A stretch of 64,000 bases of DNA from contig NZ_BAABRS010000003.1 in the NCBI RefSeq assembly GCF_039545095.1, forward strand, positions 186,001-250,000, written 5' to 3'. Under the pieces are notes generated by a model. That model was not told the origin of the DNA and did no database searches. It saw nothing but the letters and a program-made list of their open reading frames with translations. A program made the translations under genes and the position numbers. Source of the stretch: Fodinibius salicampi (lineage in GTDB: Bacteria > Bacteroidota > Rhodothermia > Balneolales > Balneolaceae). Position 1 is the stretch's first letter. Each line of letters starts with the position of its first letter. Below, piece after piece: positions 16,609 to 36,553 of this stretch.

Positions 16609-18306
16609 TTAAAAATCGCCGAAATCATCCTCATCCTCGTCAAAAGGAATCAACTCACGGCCATTGCCATTAGACTGACTCTCTTTATTGAATTCATTAT
16701 TAAATGATTTATTCTTCTGTCCATTGGAATGTCCATTCCTCTTACCCCCGTTAGCCATATAGCTATTTTTCTTTGATTTGGCTTTTCCCGAATTATTCTT
16801 AACTGCCTTACTACTGCTATTAATATCAAGTCCGCCTACCAAGCGGTTTAATTGACTCACAATATTATTAAGCTCCGCAGCTTGGAAAGAAAGCTCTTCA
16901 GCAGAACTGGCCGACTCTTCTGAGGCTGAGGCATTGCCCTGAACGGCCTCATCCATTTCGGACATGGCAGAATTTATCTGCTGCACTCCAGTCGCCTGCT
17001 CCTGGGAAGCGGCAGAAATTTCTACTACCAAAGTGCTTACCTCAACAACCTTATCTTCAATCTGCTTTAAATAATGTGAAACTTCCTGGGCCACTTTGGA
17101 CCCTTTTTCAGAATTTTCCTGAGAAGCCTCAATAAGCCCCGAAGTATTATTTGCCGCTTCGGCACTACGCTGGGCTAAATTCCGTACTTCCTCGGCCACA
17201 ACGGCGAAACCCTTTCCGGCTTCTCCGGCCCGGGCGGCCTCAACAGCTGCATTTAATGCTAATAAATTCGTTTGAAAGGCAATATCATCAATGGTTTTAA
17301 TAATCTTTGATGTCTCATCAGAAGATTCTTTAATATCATCCATTGCTCCCTGCATACGGTCCATTGCCTCTACTCCTTTTTCAACCAAAGGTTGCGTTTC
17401 TTTCATTACGCTCTCCGCCTCGCTCGAATTTTCTGAAGATTGTTTTATCTGGGAAGATATCTCTTCGAGTGAAGAGGTCGTTTCCTCGAGGCTTGCGGCC
17501 TGTTCACTGGCACTTTCCGCCAGCTCCTGGCTGGCACCCGAAAGCTGAGAAGAGGAAGAATGAACTTGGTCTGCGCCATTAGAAAGACGCTCTATGATAC
17601 GGGTCAATGTTTTATTGATAGAATTGCTAAAAATCCAGGCAATAAAAGAACCAGCTAATACCACAAGCAGAAGAAAGATTCCGGCATTACGCCAAATAAG
17701 AGCCTCAGACTCAGAAATAATCGCATTTACATCAGTCATTGGAATTCCAACATAATAAATCCCGATTATATCATTTTCTTCATTAATTATGGGATCATAT
17801 GCCGTTAAGTAGGGAATTCCAAGTATTTCGGCGTGGCCAACATATAATGACTGATTCATAACGGGTTCGTAGGCATCGCTCCCTGTTCCAAGCTGGGTTC
17901 CCACTGCTCTTTGACCATTTTCTTTTCGAATACTGGTTATAACTCGTGTAAAATCATTGCCGTCGCGCTGAAAAATAGTGGCAGTCACTCCATGCCTGCT
18001 CGCAAACTCGTCAATAATATCAAAACGCCCGGCAATGGGAACCTGATTTGTATCTACCAGTTCCCCATCAGACAACTGTACTCCTCCAAAATGATTATCC
18101 GCATAAACTTCCAAAGCATTAATATCACCATTCAGCTTCATGTCCAAGGTATGATCGGCGAGTTCCTCCAAACTACTATTGGCCGTAAAAATAGTAACAC
18201 CCGTTACAAGAAGACCAGTTATAACTAATAATGAAATAGTCATAACAATAAGGCGCTTCTTTATCGTCCAATTCTTTACCGATCGAATACTCTGTTTGAT
18301 ACCCAT
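16609..18306 (-). CDS. Methyl-accepting chemotaxis protein, Cache-type sensor (receptor 1)
   Basis: A 565-residue receptor: membrane helix ~19-40, periplasmic domain ~41-206, membrane helix ~207-226, HAMP-like stretch, then the signalling helices. The sensor domain ([59 protein letters not shown]) looks like the Cache_3-Cache_2 single Cache fold. The hairpin tip [20 protein letters not shown] is canonical. The C-terminus is an Asn/Ser/Lys/Gly-rich linker ending [16 protein letters not shown]; the last five residues DFGDF fit the CheR-tethering pentapeptide pattern x-[FYWH]-x-x-[FYWH]. It has its own sigma-28-type promoter. Confidence 0.93.
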
Positions 18307-18555: not shown

Positions 18556-20568
18556 TCAAAAATCGCTGAAATCATCCTCGTCAAAAGGAATCAGCTCACG
18601 GCCATTTCCATTACTGCTACCATTACCATTAGACTGGCTCTTATTATATTTATTATTTAATAAGCTACTCTTCTGTCCATTGGAATATCCATTCCGATTT
18701 CGACTGTGCCCGTTTTGCTTCGTTGTTTCAGCTTTCCATGAATTGCTATGATACTCTTGCCTCTCTGAATCTTCTAAACCACCAACCAAACGGCTCAGCT
18801 CTTTCACTATAATGTTAAGCTCAGCTGCCTGGGAGGAAAGTTCTTCAGCAGAACTGGCTGCTTCTTCAGAAGACGAGGCATTGCCCTGTACAGCCTCATC
18901 CATTTCAGACATTGCGGCGTTAATCTGCTGTACGCCGCTTGACTGTTCCTGCGAGGCGGCAGAAATTTCCACTACCAACGTACTAACATCATTCACACTT
19001 TTTTCAATCTTCTCTAGATTCTTAGATACTTCATCAGCTACCCTGGCTCCCCGTTTGGAACTTTCCTGGGAACTCTCTATAAGCGCTGAAGTATTTTGAG
19101 CCGCTTCAGCACTTCGCTGGGCTAAGTTTCGTACTTCCTCGGCTACAACCGCAAAACCCTTTCCGGCCTCCCCGGCCCGGGCGGCCTCAACAGCTGCATT
19201 TAAAGCCAGCAGGTTTGTCTGGAAGGCTATATCATCAATGGTCTCAATAATCTTGGAGGTTTGATCAGCCGATTCCTTAATATCTTCCATGGCATTTTTC
19301 ATGCGATTCATGGCTTCAACTCCTTCTTCTACCATAGGCTTGGCCTCATTCATGGCCGTTTCGGCCTCAGCTGAATTCTCATCGGTTTGCTTCAGCTGGG
19401 AAGAAATTTCTTCAAGCGAGGAGGTCGTTTCCTCGAGGCTCGCGGCCTGTTCGCTGGCACTTTCCGCCAGTTCCTGGCTGGCTCCTGAAAGCTGACCAGC
19501 TGAAGCATCTACCTGGCTTGCTCCTCCACTAAGTCGTACAATCATATTCTTTAGAGCATCATTAATAGTTTTTCCTACATATAACCCAAACAAAAGAGCG
19601 CCAATGACTGCCACTATAACACCAATACCTATGATCCACATATATCGAGCAGAAGTAGCCGCTGTAAATGTTGCCTTCTCACGTGCACTATTTTCAGCCG
19701 CTTCAGCAACCATCATAACATCTTCTGTTAAGTTCTGATAAGACGCAGTAGTATTCGACTCTGCTGTTTTTAAGACTTTATTGGCTTGTTCCATAACCCC
19801 AACAGCTTTAATATTCTGATCAAGTGCTGTCAAAGCATTGCCGATATATTCCCTTCCGTTAGTTCCATTCTCGATTTCGTTACGGAGGGTAACCAATTGT
19901 TCACGAACATCTGTGTAGGTATTAGTAATATTCTGCCAATCAGCTTCAACATTTTCTGCCGCCGCCTGCCATATCTGACGATTGTTATCAACAATAATCA
20001 TTCTAAGAACTGCAACATCTAAAATATCTGTTGCGCCAGGCTCCTCGACATAACTGGTCAATGAAGAAATAACATTTTTTGAGGCGTTCTCTATTTCAGT
20101 CCTGTTAGTTTTCATAGTTTCGGCAGCCTCTTTATAATTTTCAATGCTGGCTTGGAAAGCTGAGACCTCTTCTTTTAAACCAGGAATTTTTTCTTCCAAT
20201 ACAGGAAGATCATTATTATCGGTAAGAACCTGTAATTCTTGAATTTCTCCATTCATCTTCTCAAAACGAGCTATAGCCTGCTCATATATTTTATTATCAT
20301 TAGTTTGGCTATATTTCAAATACTCCGTATTGGCATTTCTTACTGCTTGATCCAAAGCCTGTGAACTTCCCCATTCCGGCAAATTTACCGCATTAAGTTC
20401 TGCTGCATATTCATCAATTATATTGAAGGCATATATCGCAAGAGCACCGAGGAGAAGCGTGATCGTAACAGCTCCTGTCGTTAAACTCATAATTCTTTTT
20501 GCAATGGTCCAATCACTATTTCCTGCGGATGAACCTAGTCCGTTTGTAAGTTTTTTAAAAAAGTTCAT
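18556..20568 (-). CDS. Methyl-accepting chemotaxis protein with long helical sensor (receptor 2)
   Basis: A 670-residue receptor: membrane helix ~29-48, a ~260-residue all-helical periplasmic domain, second membrane helix near 310-332, then signalling helices. The size and helicity of the sensor suggest a double four-helix bundle of the HBM type rather than a Cache fold; this is inference from length and composition. The cytoplasmic half is very close to that of receptor 1, including the [20 protein letters not shown] tip. It also ends in an Asn/Ser/Gly-rich linker and [14 protein letters not shown], so it carries the same putative CheR-tethering tail. It follows cheW by 54 bases and probably shares its promoter. 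Confidence 0.92.
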
Positions 20569-27851: not shown

Positions 27852-28301
27852 TTAAGAATTGAGAATACCTTTAAAGAAGCTTTTATCTCCATCATCTTCG
27901 TCCTCACCAACAGCTATGTTTCCATCATCGTCAAAATAATTGCTGATGGCCTTATGCATTTTATCTGCTGTGAAGGGTTTGGTAACATATTCATTAGCCC
28001 CACCTTCATTTAAGGCTTTATCAACTTTGCCCATCGACTTTTCAGCGGTGACCATAATTATTGGAATGTTTTTCCTCCCTTGGTCGCGTACTGCTCTTGC
28101 GAACTCTACGCCCGTCATATTGGGCATATTCCAATCAACGAATAAGATTTCTATATCGTCATTGAACTTACTTAGTGCATCTTCTCCATCCTTGGCCTCT
28201 ATATATTCAAAATCCGCAAGCATTAATTGGTTAAGTGCTCTCTTTACAGCACTTCTCATAATCTTGGAATCATCTACTACTAATGCCTTTATTTTAGCCA
28301 T
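27852..28301 (-). CDS. cheY: Chemotaxis response regulator CheY
   Basis: A 149-residue receiver with Asp10/Asp11, phospho-acceptor Asp56 in LFVDWNMPNMTG, Thr85 and Lys108 in VTKPFT. The FVDWNMP and EYVTKPF motifs are those of the canonical motor CheY, so this is the best candidate for it. The C-terminus carries an extra acidic stretch GEDEDDGDKSFFKGILNS of unknown purpose. It leads cheY-cheX-cheA-cheR-cheD and has a sigma-28-type promoter. Confidence 0.92.
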   Translation of the reverse strand: MAKIKALVVDDSKIMRSAVKRALNQLMLADFEYIEAKDGEDALSKFNDDIEILFVDWNMPNMTGVEFARAVRDQGRKNIPIIMVTAEKSMGKVDKALNEGGANEYVTKPFTADKMHKAISNYFDDDGNIAVGEDEDDGDKSFFKGILNS

Positions 28302-28454: not shown

Positions 28455-28481
28455 TTATCGGTTGAAGTGACAAATTCTTAA
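28455..28481 (-). promoter_or_regulatory. Sigma-28-type promoter for cheY-cheX-cheA operon
   Basis: Minus strand TTAAGAAT, 11 bases, ACCGATAA; transcript start expected near 28448, leaving a leader of about 150 bases before the cheY ATG. Confidence 0.75.
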
Positions 28482-28600
28482 ACTATTTTATTGGGGATTT
28501 CTTCATTCGTCGCTGAGATCTCCATTATTATTTTGATATAGCTTTTTCTAATTGAGATATTAGAAGTCAGAGCAGGAATAAATCTACCGAAAACTTTTTT

Positions 28601-28627
28601 TAAAGCTTACTCTTTGGGGGTCGATAA
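28601..28627 (+). promoter_or_regulatory. Sigma-28-type promoter for the 150-residue orphan
   Basis: Plus strand TAAAGCTT, 11 bases, GTCGATAA; 14 of 16 positions agree with the FliA consensus, with exact spacing. Divergent from the cheY promoter and 51 bases before the orphan ATG. Confidence 0.8.
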
Positions 28628-28678
28628 AAAAGGGAAGGCATTATATAACTATAATATTTAGTACAGTAATCCGGGTAC

Positions 28679-29131
28679 ATGCTATCACGTTCATCCAAAA
28701 TAAAATCCTCCTCTGCAGTACAATCGCCTGGTAAAGTTCAATACGTACAAGAATACCTCTCCGACGTACATGCACCCACAGACTTCCCATCTATTGAAGA
28801 GGAAAAGGGAAGTCATGGGAAAGATCACAGTTCTTCTTCAGAAAAAGAAGCACAGGGACAATCCCCCAGTAACGACAGCCCGGATTTAGAACTCCTCGTT
28901 CCCCGGAAAAATTTTCAAGAACTCTTTAATCGTTTTTTTGTTTTAGGACATAAGCAACTCCTGATGCTTCAAACGAAAATACGAAAACCTAAAGATCCCA
29001 ATAATCATTCTGCTCTTGTCTTAGGCGATATTGATAATCAAAAGGTTCAGGCACTTCGCCGACATTACTATCAGCTTCAAATGCTGCTTTTCAATATGTC
29101 GAAAGGAAATAATCACAGCTCAAGAATTTGA
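28679..29131 (+). CDS. Unrecognised 150-residue protein, probable late flagellar gene
   Basis: I do not recognise this protein. Residues 1-75 are Ser/Lys/Glu/His-rich and look disordered; residues ~78-145 look helical (RKNFQELFNRFFVLGHKQLL and QKVQALRRHYYQLQMLLFNM). No signal peptide or membrane helix is seen. A strong sigma-28-type promoter lies upstream, and the gene is divergent from cheY. By length, helical C-terminus and promoter class it could be an export chaperone (FlgN/FliS/FliT-like), an anti-sigma factor or a chemotaxis accessory, but no motif supports any of these. Confidence 0.6.
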   Translation: MLSRSSKIKSSSAVQSPGKVQYVQEYLSDVHAPTDFPSIEEEKGSHGKDHSSSSEKEAQGQSPSNDSPDLELLVPRKNFQELFNRFFVLGHKQLLMLQTKIRKPKDPNNHSALVLGDIDNQKVQALRRHYYQLQMLLFNMSKGNNHSSRI

Positions 29132-29238: not shown

Positions 29239-29664
29239 TTAACTTGCCCGACGATTCCTTTTATTCTCAATTGAAGCCGAACTGTTTTCTGGCAATTCTT
29301 TTTCGTTATCACACTCATCATAGAGGTCTTCAATAATGTCACTCAGCTCACTTATCCCTTTTTGAATTTTTGACCTATATTTTTCTACCCGTTCAGCATC
29401 AACCTCATCCTGAAGAAACATCTGCATGAGTTCCAAGTATCCTGAAATAGCACTAATGGGAGACATAGCATTATGCATATATTCTCTTACCATCTTATCC
29501 CTCAATTCAAGAGCAGGCCTCAACTTTTGGAACTCATCTGCTATGGCCATTCGCTTTATTATGGGATGTTCCCCTTCCCATCCGTTATCCTCCTCCCTTT
29601 TTTTTGAGTCTCCTTCATTTTTACTAACCAATGCAACAAATGTATCGTCTGTAACACCCATCAT
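29239..29664 (-). CDS. Histidine kinase dimerisation (HisKA-like) domain without ATPase domain
   Basis: A 141-residue protein containing a kinase H-box, VREYMHNAMSPISAISGYLE, with the would-be phospho-acceptor His64, followed by a second long helix (VEKYRSKIQKGISELSDIIE). It stops in a charged tail without any N, G1 or G2 box, so it cannot bind ATP as a kinase does. It could be a phosphotransfer protein, a decoy or a dimerisation partner for the kinases at 14650 and 30008. It lies convergent with the 150-residue orphan. No frameshift remnant of an ATPase domain is seen downstream. Confidence 0.65.
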   Translation of the reverse strand: MMGVTDDTFVALVSKNEGDSKKREEDNGWEGEHPIIKRMAIADEFQKLRPALELRDKMVREYMHNAMSPISAISGYLELMQMFLQDEVDAERVEKYRSKIQKGISELSDIIEDLYDECDNEKELPENSSASIENKRNRRAS

Positions 29665-30007
29665 ACTTTAACGGTCTAATGAACATGAACACTTATGCCA
29701 GATAAGATTAAAGCAATTGTAAATGATATTTTTAGCCAACGTTTAGGATCTTATCGGACAACCCTGTCTTAAATATATTAAATAATTCTAATATTAGAAA
29801 TAATTAATATAAATATTGATTAAGTGTGCAGCAGACCTTTAATTATATTTTATAAAATTATAGTCGCAAGTATTAAAAATGGATAGCTTACTTTTAGTTA
29901 AATTATTTCAAAAGAACTATATATCATCTTTTAATTTACCCTCTGCTGGTTTCCAATTCTCTCCCAGTGATTTGCTCAACTAGCCATAGAGGAAGGAGTT
30001 CATTTCT
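29665..30007. other. Intergenic region between divergent genes
   Basis: A/T-rich. A TCCGATAA on the minus strand at 29751-29758 resembles a sigma-28 -10 element, but the -35 position (29770-29777, TATATTTA) fits poorly, so I call no promoter. Upstream of the hybrid kinase only an AGGAAGGAG ribosome-binding site ending about ten bases before the ATG is clear. No gene seen. Confidence 0.5.
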
Positions 30008-31549
30008 ATGCAAAAAGCTATTGAATTTCTTTTCATCAATACTTCTGAGGACTATATTTCTGCAGCTCTCGAAATTCTACAGCAGGATGGGATGGAGTTT
30101 CAATACACCTCCCTTGAAAAACAAGCAGAAATACTACAGGCTATAGAAAAAGAGGGGCGATGGGATTTAATTCTCCTTTCTGCAAAACCTCCCGCCGACA
30201 ACTTTTCTATACTTGAGCTTATTAAAAAGCAGAATAGAAAGGTTCCTGTTATAACCCTAACAGAGCAAGAAAATTATAAGAGGGTCGCTATATCTGCGAT
30301 GGAGAAAGGAGCAAATGATTGTGTATCAAAAGAACATATAGAACGATTATTACCTGTTGCTAAAAGGGAATTAAAAAATAAACGGAAAACCGACTATCTC
30401 GCTAATGCCGCTCATGACATGCGTACCGGCATAAATTCAATTATTTTATCAAGTAAATTACTGATTGAACATGACCATGATGATTTAAAACTAGAGCAGC
30501 GTAAGTTTACAAATGCGATATACCACTCCGGTCATCATTTGCTCCGATATATTGAATCATTTTTAGAACCCGAAGATGATGGTGGGGTCTATGCCACAAA
30601 AGAAAACCTAAATACCATTGATCTCCATTCATTTTGCAAGAATATGTATCAAATATTCTTACCTATTGCCAAAGAAAAGGACATCCAGTTTGAATATAAG
30701 ATAGGAAAGCACTGCCCCTCCCAAATCCAAACAAATGCTATTTATTTGGAACGTATTTTAACCAATATTTTATCAAATGCGTTTAAATATACACAAAAGG
30801 GCAACGTAACTTTTAATACCTATTCACCAGATGCCAAAATTAAACAAGAATCCAACAATATTGTTGCCTTTCAAGTAAATGATACTGGAATAGGCATTCC
30901 CGAAAAACAACAAAAACAAATATTTAACCGATACAACCGGGGAAGCCAATCAGAAAACCAAGAGACTATGGGCCATGGCCTTGGATTAGATATTTGTCAA
31001 CAGTTAACAAATATATTAGAAGGAGAGCTGCATATAGAAAGTGAAGTCGGCACCGGTAGCACATTCACGCTCTACCTACCGGCCGGCTACCTATCACCTC
31101 ATCCAGAAAAACCCAAAATTTCTCGGAAAAATGAGCACTCTATACTGCCTGGGTCTGTAGAAAAATTAGATAATACGGTTCTGGTTGTAGACGACAGTAG
31201 GATGCATAACCTGGCTATCAAAGAATTTTTAAGCTATAAGATAAACCATTGCTTTACTGCCAGCTCTACTAATGAGGCTTACAGCATTCTCCAGGAACAA
31301 TCGGTAGATTGTATTGTCCTCGATTTAGTTTTAGCTGATCAAAGTGGGATAGATGTGGCAAAATATTTGAGAAAGAAGACGGGATATTCAGATATCCCTA
31401 TTATTATTTATACCGGTAAAAAGTTATCTAAGAAAGAGCGCAAACTCTCGGATAAATATGTTGATGCGGTTGTTCAAAAAGGGGCAGGAAGTTACAATAA
31501 GTTGATGAATACTATCTGTACTTCTCTTACAGCCAATTCTTTTTATTAA
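30008..31549 (+). CDS. Hybrid sensor histidine kinase, degenerate receiver at the N-terminus and intact receiver at the C-terminus
   Basis: A 513-residue soluble protein. Residues 1-115 have a receiver-like fold, but the phospho-acceptor position holds Ser58 (LILLSAKPP) and the usual acidic pair is missing, so it is a pseudo-receiver; Thr85 and Lys108 remain. Next comes the dimerisation domain with His136 (AAHDMRTGINSIIL), then an ATPase domain with LTNILSNAFKYT, VNDTGIGIPE and GHGLGLDIC. The C-terminal receiver is intact: VVDD near 394-396, Asp439 in CIVLDLVLAD, Thr469, Lys491. No partner gene follows. Proximity to the chemotaxis genes suggests, without proof, a motility or surface-related switch. 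Confidence 0.85.
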   Translation: MQKAIEFLFINTSEDYISAALEILQQDGMEFQYTSLEKQAEILQAIEKEGRWDLILLSAKPPADNFSILELIKKQNRKVPVITLTEQENYKRVAISAMEKGANDCVSKEHIERLLPVAKRELKNKRKTDYLANAAHDMRTGINSIILSSKLLIEHDHDDLKLEQRKFTNAIYHSGHHLLRYIESFLEPEDDGGVYATKENLNTIDLHSFCKNMYQIFLPIAKEKDIQFEYKIGKHCPSQIQTNAIYLERILTNILSNAFKYTQKGNVTFNTYSPDAKIKQESNNIVAFQVNDTGIGIPEKQQKQIFNRYNRGSQSENQETMGHGLGLDICQQLTNILEGELHIESEVGTGSTFTLYLPAGYLSPHPEKPKISRKNEHSILPGSVEKLDNTVLVVDDSRMHNLAIKEFLSYKINHCFTASSTNEAYSILQEQSVDCIVLDLVLADQSGIDVAKYLRKKTGYSDIPIIIYTGKKLSKKERKLSDKYVDAVVQKGAGSYNKLMNTICTSLTANSFY

Positions 31550-36004: not shown

Positions 36005-36553
36005 ATGAATAAAGCTTTTTTTCTGGATCGCGACGGAACCATTAATGTAGACTATAACTATGTACACCGTCCCGAAGAATGGACCTGGTGCGATAATGCA
36101 ATTAAAGCTTTGCAATGGATACAGAACCACAGCTATAAGATTATTGTCGTCACTAATCAGTCGGGTATTGCCCGGGGCAGGTATACCGAAGAACAGGTTC
36201 AAAGCTTGCACAAATGGGCCGATAAACAACTTGCTGAACAAAATATCTCCATTGACGGCTGGTATTATGCTCCTCACCATCCCACGCACGACCCCGACAA
36301 GGAATATGCGCCCGAAGACCGCAAACCCGGTACGGGCATGTTTGAAAAAGCCGCCCAAAAGCATAATATCGATTTTAGTAAATCATATATGGCCGGAGAT
36401 AAAATAACAGATCTCAAACCGGCTATTGAGCTGGGAATGACTCCCTTCTTTATACGCTCCCGCCACGAAGCCAATCAGGATGGGCGATGGCTCGAGAAAC
36501 ACAACCTTGTCCGACACAACACGCTCTTTGATGCTATCCAGACTCTTGACTAA
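36005..36553 (+). CDS. gmhB: D-glycero-D-manno-heptose 1,7-bisphosphate 7-phosphatase GmhB (HAD family)
   Basis: A 182-residue HAD phosphatase. Motif I is FFLDRDGT (Asp8 and Asp10), motif II VTNQSGIARGRYT, motif III lysine in EDRKPGTGMF, motif IV MAGDKITD. GmhB acts in making ADP-heptose for the lipopolysaccharide inner core. The loop that in the Escherichia coli enzyme binds zinc (C-x-H...C-x-C-RKP) reads YYAPHHPTHDPDKEYAPEDR here, so the cysteines are missing; the zinc site is probably lost, which weakens substrate assignment. A histidinol-phosphatase-like role is the alternative. Confidence 0.75.
   Translation: MNKAFFLDRDGTINVDYNYVHRPEEWTWCDNAIKALQWIQNHSYKIIVVTNQSGIARGRYTEEQVQSLHKWADKQLAEQNISIDGWYYAPHHPTHDPDKEYAPEDRKPGTGMFEKAAQKHNIDFSKSYMAGDKITDLKPAIELGMTPFFIRSRHEANQDGRWLEKHNLVRHNTLFDAIQTLD

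Follow-up and report, generated by a model that had tools for sequence, protein, structure and literature searches.

What is encoded by the short gene that borders the chemotaxis block on its far side in this part of the Fodinibius salicampi genome, and does it belong to the flagellar system beside it? The window, by which we mean the whole stretch of 64,000 nucleotides analysed, comes from a genome of 3.94 Mb in 11 contigs. Flagellar and chemotaxis genes, most of them named by eye, fill approximately its first 28 kb; they also take up parts of the preceding 44 kb, as far back as two flagellins (C3:142125-144649). The first-pass annotation had placed at this edge a protein of 150 residues, whose boundaries proved right (28679..29131, plus strand, with the ATG at 28679 and the stop codon ending at 29131; ORF 28679 hereafter), and had read it as a late flagellar or chemotaxis part. 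The gene diverges, as that annotation said, from a gene for a CheY-like response regulator (27852..28301, minus strand), followed by cheX and cheA and then, as judged by eye, by cheR- and cheD-like genes, in an order that is kept in relatives. The place beside cheY is correct for the window and is not general: elsewhere, the homologues described below lie beside flagellins, flgB, pyrR or enolase. In the same block, two chemoreceptors (16609-18306 and 18556-20568, both on the minus strand) appear by eye to have a common C-terminal tail after a long flexible linker, which is possibly a tether for CheR or CheB. In what follows, G codes denote genomes and L codes loci, and the order set comprises 128 genomes.

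ORF 28679 is under purifying selection. Its dN/dS is 0.14-0.18 in four pairs, values that are rough, since dS is high (0.9-2.4) and synonymous sites are near saturation; cheY gives 0.023-0.028 in three of those four pairs, and the histidine-kinase gene that lies tail-to-tail with ORF 28679 gives 0.11-0.17 in three pairs. The alignment of seven close relatives has 21 invariant columns, namely M1, L2, R4, S5, S6, Y26, F36, P37, F79, F86 and F87, followed by H91, L94, L97, R127, Y131, L133, Q134, F138, K142 and G143. The protein opens with a conserved segment, which reads ML.RSS in close relatives; a linker of variable sequence follows at about residues 41-68, and the helical C-terminal half carries the signature R127...Y131...F138...K142-G143. 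The 28 homologues measure 148-167 aa and have conserved ends; R127 is kept in 26 of the 28 members, Y131 in 27 and G143 in 24, and residues 51-60 form the least conserved block. The AlphaFold2 models, both of low confidence and built from six sequences per run, agree with the earlier description of one disordered and one helical half. For the full protein (mean pLDDT of only 54.6), residues 1-75 are predicted to have no structure and helices are predicted at 76-102 and 120-142, while residues 65-150 modelled alone (pLDDT 60.5) give longer helices, at 76-101 and 112-142.

The protein belongs to an undescribed family. No Pfam family matches it, and profile searches with 13 homologues against Pfam, NCBIfam, PHROGs and PDB returned isolated weak matches (best E of 0.015, 0.083, 0.016 and 0.9, respectively) and no family match, as the first-pass annotation had anticipated. 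The PDB match at E 0.9 is a lipoprotein and was disregarded, and a phage origin was rejected, no PHROGs family being matched by more than one of the 13 members. Among the titles and abstract openings returned by the literature search, none describes this protein, and the accessible part of PMC12199754 has no match for 'balneol' or 'rhodotherm'.

The family was assembled in three rounds. A search with the single sequence gave eight clear homologues among 11 genus-group genomes, the named relatives being Fodinibius roseus, Aliifodinibius salipaludis, F. salsisoli and two uncultured Aliifodinibius, together with weak matches in G012 (E 6e-4), G030 (0.005), G039 (0.009) and G054 (0.14). These four were accepted into the profile because a convergent kinase gene adjoins each of them, as in the genus; G054 and G039 share the next genes as well. 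The resulting 13-row profile yielded 14 further matches with E of at most 0.0012 in the 128 genomes of the order, and a 27-row profile added G024 (E 4.8e-4), whose homologue lies 1.7 kb from flagellins and, like that of G001, adjoins a kinase and a pyrR-like gene. Left out were G050, G052 and a further match in G009 (E 0.067, located within a frame of 861 codons) from the single-sequence search; G020, G027, G028, G037, G052 and G075 from the 13-row profile (E above 0.005, most of them short or with stops); and G027, G052, G062, G138, G139, G175 and a second G011 match from the 27-row profile (E above 0.005). L120 in G095 (E 0.4) has the look of a homologue, but its promoter score is 9.5 and its best pairwise E is 0.025, and it was not counted; the remaining matches of the search that gave it were dropped as well. 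Since profiles match their own rows, we repeated the searches leaving out each of 16 groups in turn, and the resulting profiles recovered all 28 homologues at E 3e-49 to 1e-5, including G030 (2e-44), G039 (3e-49) and G054 (4e-41). This test was run filter-free, and in it L123, a long and unrelated ORF, had E values of up to 5e-8, and of 1.8e-8 when G024 was the group left out; it thereby surpassed G024 itself (1e-5) and came near G051 (1.5e-9), so the membership of G024 and G051 rests partly on position.

Within the order, homologues were found only in genomes with flagellar genes. Of the order's 128 genomes, many of them incomplete, 53 have rod genes (PF00460); a homologue occurs in 28 of these 53 and in none of the 75 genomes lacking rod genes (Fisher p 7e-14, uncorrected for kinship). 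All 28 thus coincide with flagellar rod genes, and presence in non-flagellated relatives, which the first-pass annotation had named as the finding that would speak against its reading, was not observed. Four genomes lacking rod genes gave weak matches only (E 0.013-0.094), which have internal stops and are not credible. Within the genus group, counting the genome of the window, every one of the 10 genomes that carry rod genes has the homologue, and neither of the two that lack them does. G054 is among the genomes with rod genes, although no flagellin turned up there. Over the 244 genomes of the class, no credible homologue was found outside the order. Of the 53 flagellated genomes of the order, 25 have no profile match to the family. 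As a separate observation, G001 (L084/L151), from the same genus group, carries a very diverged copy next to a full kinase in a pyrR setting and not in the cheY slot; this setting resembles that of G024, which belongs to another genus, and the copy is perhaps the result of gene transfer or an old duplicate.

The upstream region carries a sigma-28 (FliA) promoter-like site at 28601..28627 on the plus strand, composed of TAAA at 28601-28604, 15 nucleotides, and GTCGATAA at 28620-28627, with the -10 element ending 51 nt before the ATG. It scores 11 of 12 against the general consensus TAAA-N15-GCCGATAA, which has six matches of at least 11 of 12 in the whole window, corresponding to four distinct sites as two were counted in two registers, against 1.5 expected from 15 Markov simulations. 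One of the window sites at this level lies inside motA and another inside the 36005-36553 ORF. Against the organism's own form of the site (TTAA/TAAA-N15..17-YCGATAA, top score 11.5), ORF 28679 scores 11.5, equal to motA, MCP1, cheW, cheY, cheX 22805, one flagellin and fliS. Lower values were obtained for the other genes of the flagellar and chemotaxis systems, such as MCP2 (9.0), cheA (7.5) and flgB (8.5). The earlier statement that this is one of the best sigma-28 sites in the window is right, because the site ties at 11.5 with seven others. The cheY site lies on the other strand (28455..28481), so the gap between cheY and ORF 28679 holds two predicted sigma-28 sites back to back.

The best upstream score is at least 10.5 of 11.5 in 27 of the 28 homologues, the sole exception being L074 with 9.5, and at least 11 in 22 of 28 (21 of 27 without L117). 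Mononucleotide shuffles of 27 upstream regions reached 11 in 0 of 810 cases and 10.5 in 10 of 810. Among upstream regions of control genes, the corresponding numbers were 0 and 2 of 20 in the window at 34001-64000, and 16 and 32 of 220 in the loci of the relatives, where true flagellar genes are among those counted. The best site lies at an odd distance from the start in L037 (140 nt), L072 (113), L081 (204) and L083 (10). These counts show a predicted sigma-28 site to be conserved upstream of the family, and FliA itself is encoded in the genome (L042:15113-15877; TIGR02479, 213.6 bits against a cut-off of 189.6). With 28 homologues that occur only with rod genes and a site in 27 of them, the late flagellar reading is well supported, and we are highly confident that ORF 28679 is a FliA-class late flagellar accessory gene.

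The palindrome TTCTAAT...ATTAGAA, at 28546-28565 and 29786-29799 of the window, flanks ORF 28679 and its partner, with two occurrences seen against 0.0 expected in 30 simulations; this putative operator was not found in the genus relatives' loci beside the homologues. One TTCTAACATTAGAA is present upstream of the partner kinase in G012 (L037:11394).

The first-pass annotation, supported in its flagellar reading, missed a conserved histidine-kinase partner in tail-to-tail orientation. In the window this partner (29239..29664, minus strand, 141 aa) consists only of a DHp (HisKA) hairpin, with His64 in HNAMSP and no ATPase domain; its HisKA match has E 3.3e-6 and 27.5 bits, against a cut-off of 26.9. 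It lacks the ATPase domain with G1 and G2 boxes that a functional kinase has. Next to it lies a hybrid histidine kinase (30008..31549, plus strand; HisKA, HATPase and receiver domains by Pfam), a homologue of which has the same place in seven of nine other genus-group loci (not in L029 or G001). A gene with a histidine-kinase domain lies tail-to-tail with the homologue in 23 of the 28 loci (this window, L030-L040, L072-L078, L081, L084, L085 and L117), and there is no adjacent kinase in L029 (F. roseus, of the same genus group), L079, L080, L082 and L083, whose neighbours are by eye HAD-like (L079, L080, L083) or enolase-like (L079, L080, L082). The pair is kept in surroundings as varied as cheY-cheX-cheA, flagellins, flgB-flgC-fliE and pyrR. 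The stop ends of the two genes are a median of 10 nt apart in 29 pairs, that is, these 23 and six from the positional counterparts described below, and 107 nt apart in the window.

We examined 30 partners, namely the 23, the six of the counterparts, and that of G040 (L142-L148 being among the loci). The phosphoacceptor His of the H-box is kept in all 30, the genome of the window included, with D following it in 14 and either N or K in the other 16. Both ATP boxes, G1 and G2, are intact in 11 of the 30, and their distribution follows the neighbourhood: in none of the 18 partners beside cheY 27852 (eight genus loci, L037, L038, L072, the six counterparts and G040) are both intact, versus 11 of the 12 located elsewhere (the exception being L076), a contrast that is partly confounded by kinship. 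Full kinases away from cheY are nevertheless found in G001, of the same genus group, and in G024, of the same family. HATPase Pfam scores of the partners include 94.7 bits in L039, 33.5 in L038 and 23.1, under the cut-off, in L037, and in the window and seven genus relatives the partner ends after the DHp hairpin (130-142 aa). The regions upstream of the partner reach a sigma-28 score of 10.5 in 3 of 18 cases and 11 in none; because the partner has no conserved sigma-28 site, FliA does not appear to control both genes.

The same arrangement can be followed into genomes in which the profiles find no family member. Fourteen of the 25 unmatched genomes with rod genes carry an orthologue of cheX 27333, and in nine of those 14 (G020, G028, G032, G066, G067, G068, G069, G072 and G073) the corresponding slot is filled by a very diverged ORF of 119-157 codons, with cheY on one side and a convergent partner kinase on the other, which is whole in six and cut by the end of the locus in three. 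The nine all end in a family-like signature, in which Y precedes [PA][KA]G and a D comes four residues later. A comparison of a profile of eight of the nine with that of the family gave a probability of 29.6% and E 5.7e-4 over 33 C-terminal columns (17.6% and 0.0014 with a smaller profile), which is suggestive only. The CCGATAA box is kept in G020 and G073; the other seven score 8.5, and genus group g4 (six genomes) and G028 have no detectable sigma-28 site. These nine ORFs are probable counterparts of ORF 28679 and were not counted among the 28 homologues. The g4 counterparts (L133, L134, L135, L136) have in common, by eye, an upstream GATTCTAA motif and no sigma-28 site, and the motif is perhaps another promoter or operator. 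No counterpart was found in the other 16 of the 25 genomes, 11 of which also lack the cheX landmark; of the remaining five, G040 keeps the kinase beside cheY and has no counterpart, and none was found in the loci of G044, G119, G121 and G095, in the last of which the contig ends at that point.

How a FliA-class gene and a kinase-derived one may work together can be outlined as follows. We consider it fairly probable that ORF 28679 encodes a lineage-specific FliA-class accessory protein that acts with its kinase-derived neighbour, by a mechanism that we infer from their arrangement. The protein would stay cytoplasmic and would be made once hook-basal bodies are complete, and its C-terminal helices and end peptide would dock on the DHp bundle of the partner, by analogy with small proteins that dock on kinases, such as Sda on KinA. 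The pair would tune the flow of phosphoryl groups to a receiver domain, most likely that of CheY in genomes that place the pair next to cheY. To a partner that is still a full kinase, the protein would signal that the flagellum is being finished; in the genome of the window, the His-bearing DHp hairpin would serve as a phosphotransfer or CheY-binding adaptor, which could pass or accept phosphate or merely hold the receiver. This kinase-pair mechanism is tentative, and we place it below an even chance, the five of 28 loci with no adjacent kinase and the lack of a conserved FliA site in front of the partner counting against it. A more specific version, a reporter of flagellum completion in which the FliA-made, half-disordered protein uses its helical end and C-terminal peptide to clamp the DHp bundle of a dedicated histidine kinase and passes the state of assembly to two-component or chemotaxis signalling, and in which the kinase beside cheY has lost catalysis while most Fodinibius relatives keep the bare hairpin and the pair, is speculative and, in our judgement, rather unlikely.

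Other explanations have to be weighed against this one. The protein could be a substrate of flagellar type III export, with the disordered N-terminal half as its signal, acting as a FlgM-like anti-sigma factor or checkpoint or as a secreted non-flagellar protein like those of Campylobacter. The disordered half, the sigma-28 site and the conserved extreme N-terminus (ML.RSS) fit a FlgM-like logic, and because none of the 58 genomes searched in this order has a PF04316 match above the cut-off, the profiles may miss the anti-sigma factor of the order. However, neither FlgM nor an export-substrate family matches the protein: PF04316 gave no match at E 1 in it or in 12 homologues, and TIGR03824 gave none. 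A separate FlgM-like ORF lies in the same genome behind fliS, fliD and a FliT-sized gene (L043:18809-19156). The FlgM profiles do not match this ORF directly, and its link is through L050:7156-7605 of G035 (29% identity, E 3e-4 with composition correction off), which matches FlgM weakly, at 17-18 bits; G035 carries both this second ORF and a homologue of ORF 28679. The two FlgM-like ORFs are very diverged, and each closes a fliS-fliD run. We therefore rejected FlgM as the identity of ORF 28679, the ORF at L043 being a better, though weak and tentative, candidate. As export would also leave the kinase linkage unexplained, we regard this alternative as rather unlikely. A small protein with a helical C-terminal half and a sigma-28 site might also be a chaperone of the FliS, FliT or FlgN kind, serving the export of a late flagellar substrate, but FliS is present (45.6 bits) and a weak FlgN match (25.1 bits, under the cut-off) and a FliT-sized gene with no FliT match stand in their usual places. 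The Pfam and NCBIfam profiles of these chaperones have no match in protein 28679, whose long disordered N-terminal half is, to our knowledge, unlike them, and we judge this role very improbable.

The linkage to the kinase might, on the other hand, be positional only, reflecting a shared terminator or antisense overlap, with the protein acting elsewhere, on flagellin, the motor or the export gate. Given stop ends a median of 10 nt apart, convergent transcripts could indeed overlap, and both the persistence of the homologue in five of 28 loci with no adjacent kinase and the partner's lack of a conserved FliA site point the same way; against this, the pair stays together while its surroundings change among cheY, flagellin, flgB and pyrR, and we take a purely positional linkage to be quite improbable. 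Finally, an ORF that had arisen by chance or become vestigial, next to a genuine promoter, would account for the fast evolution of the protein, which is 29-48% identical to eight genus-group relatives, and for a genus described as non-motile in the accessible part of PMC9909488. This explanation is already contradicted by the selection test and by 28 homologues with conserved ends, and the conserved promoter and synteny oppose it as well, so we give it almost no weight.

The same source, in the part accessible, states that the described Fodinibius and Aliifodinibius species are non-motile and that their flagellar pathway is incomplete. Our results bear on this statement, because a late gene, ORF 28679, is still under selection; taken together, the purifying selection and the conservation of the site are an indirect argument that late flagellar genes remain in use. 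By eye, the flagellar and chemotaxis set in positions 1-28301 of the window and in L042, L043 and L053 looks well stocked. With ORF 28679, the late flagellar genes of an order that has received little study gain an undescribed and testable family. Beside this one conserved protein stands a natural series of partners, a full kinase, a kinase that has lost its ATP boxes, and a DHp hairpin alone, and the series divides according to whether the pair adjoins cheY. It is a good case for asking which part of a histidine kinase stays worthwhile once catalysis is lost, and for studying the link between flagellar assembly and chemotaxis signalling.

Compared with known systems, ORF 28679 is of an ordinary kind, being a late flagellar gene specific to its lineage; what is unusual is its companion, the kinase partner. 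It resembles FlgM (PF04316, TIGR03824) in being small, in its sigma-28 site, in its disordered N-terminal and helical C-terminal halves and in its flagellar region, and differs from it in having no sequence match and in the better FlgM candidates held by its own genome and by G035; we know of no kinase partner of FlgM. With FliS, FliT and FlgN (PF02561, PF05130) it has in common a small size, helical structure and the late-gene class, but a separate FliS gene and FlgN- and FliT-like genes are in place, and it matches none of these families. Campylobacter makes secreted, sigma-28-driven proteins (Feds) that are lineage-specific, non-structural and produced together with the flagellum; by description, ORF 28679 is like them, its own export being putative. 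The likeness to HisKA proteins (PF00512) and pseudo-histidine-kinases, in turn, concerns the partner and not ORF 28679 itself: the partner has the HisKA match and the phosphoacceptor His, and it differs from them in standing alone as a hairpin, its ATPase domain lost, in the window and in seven genus relatives.
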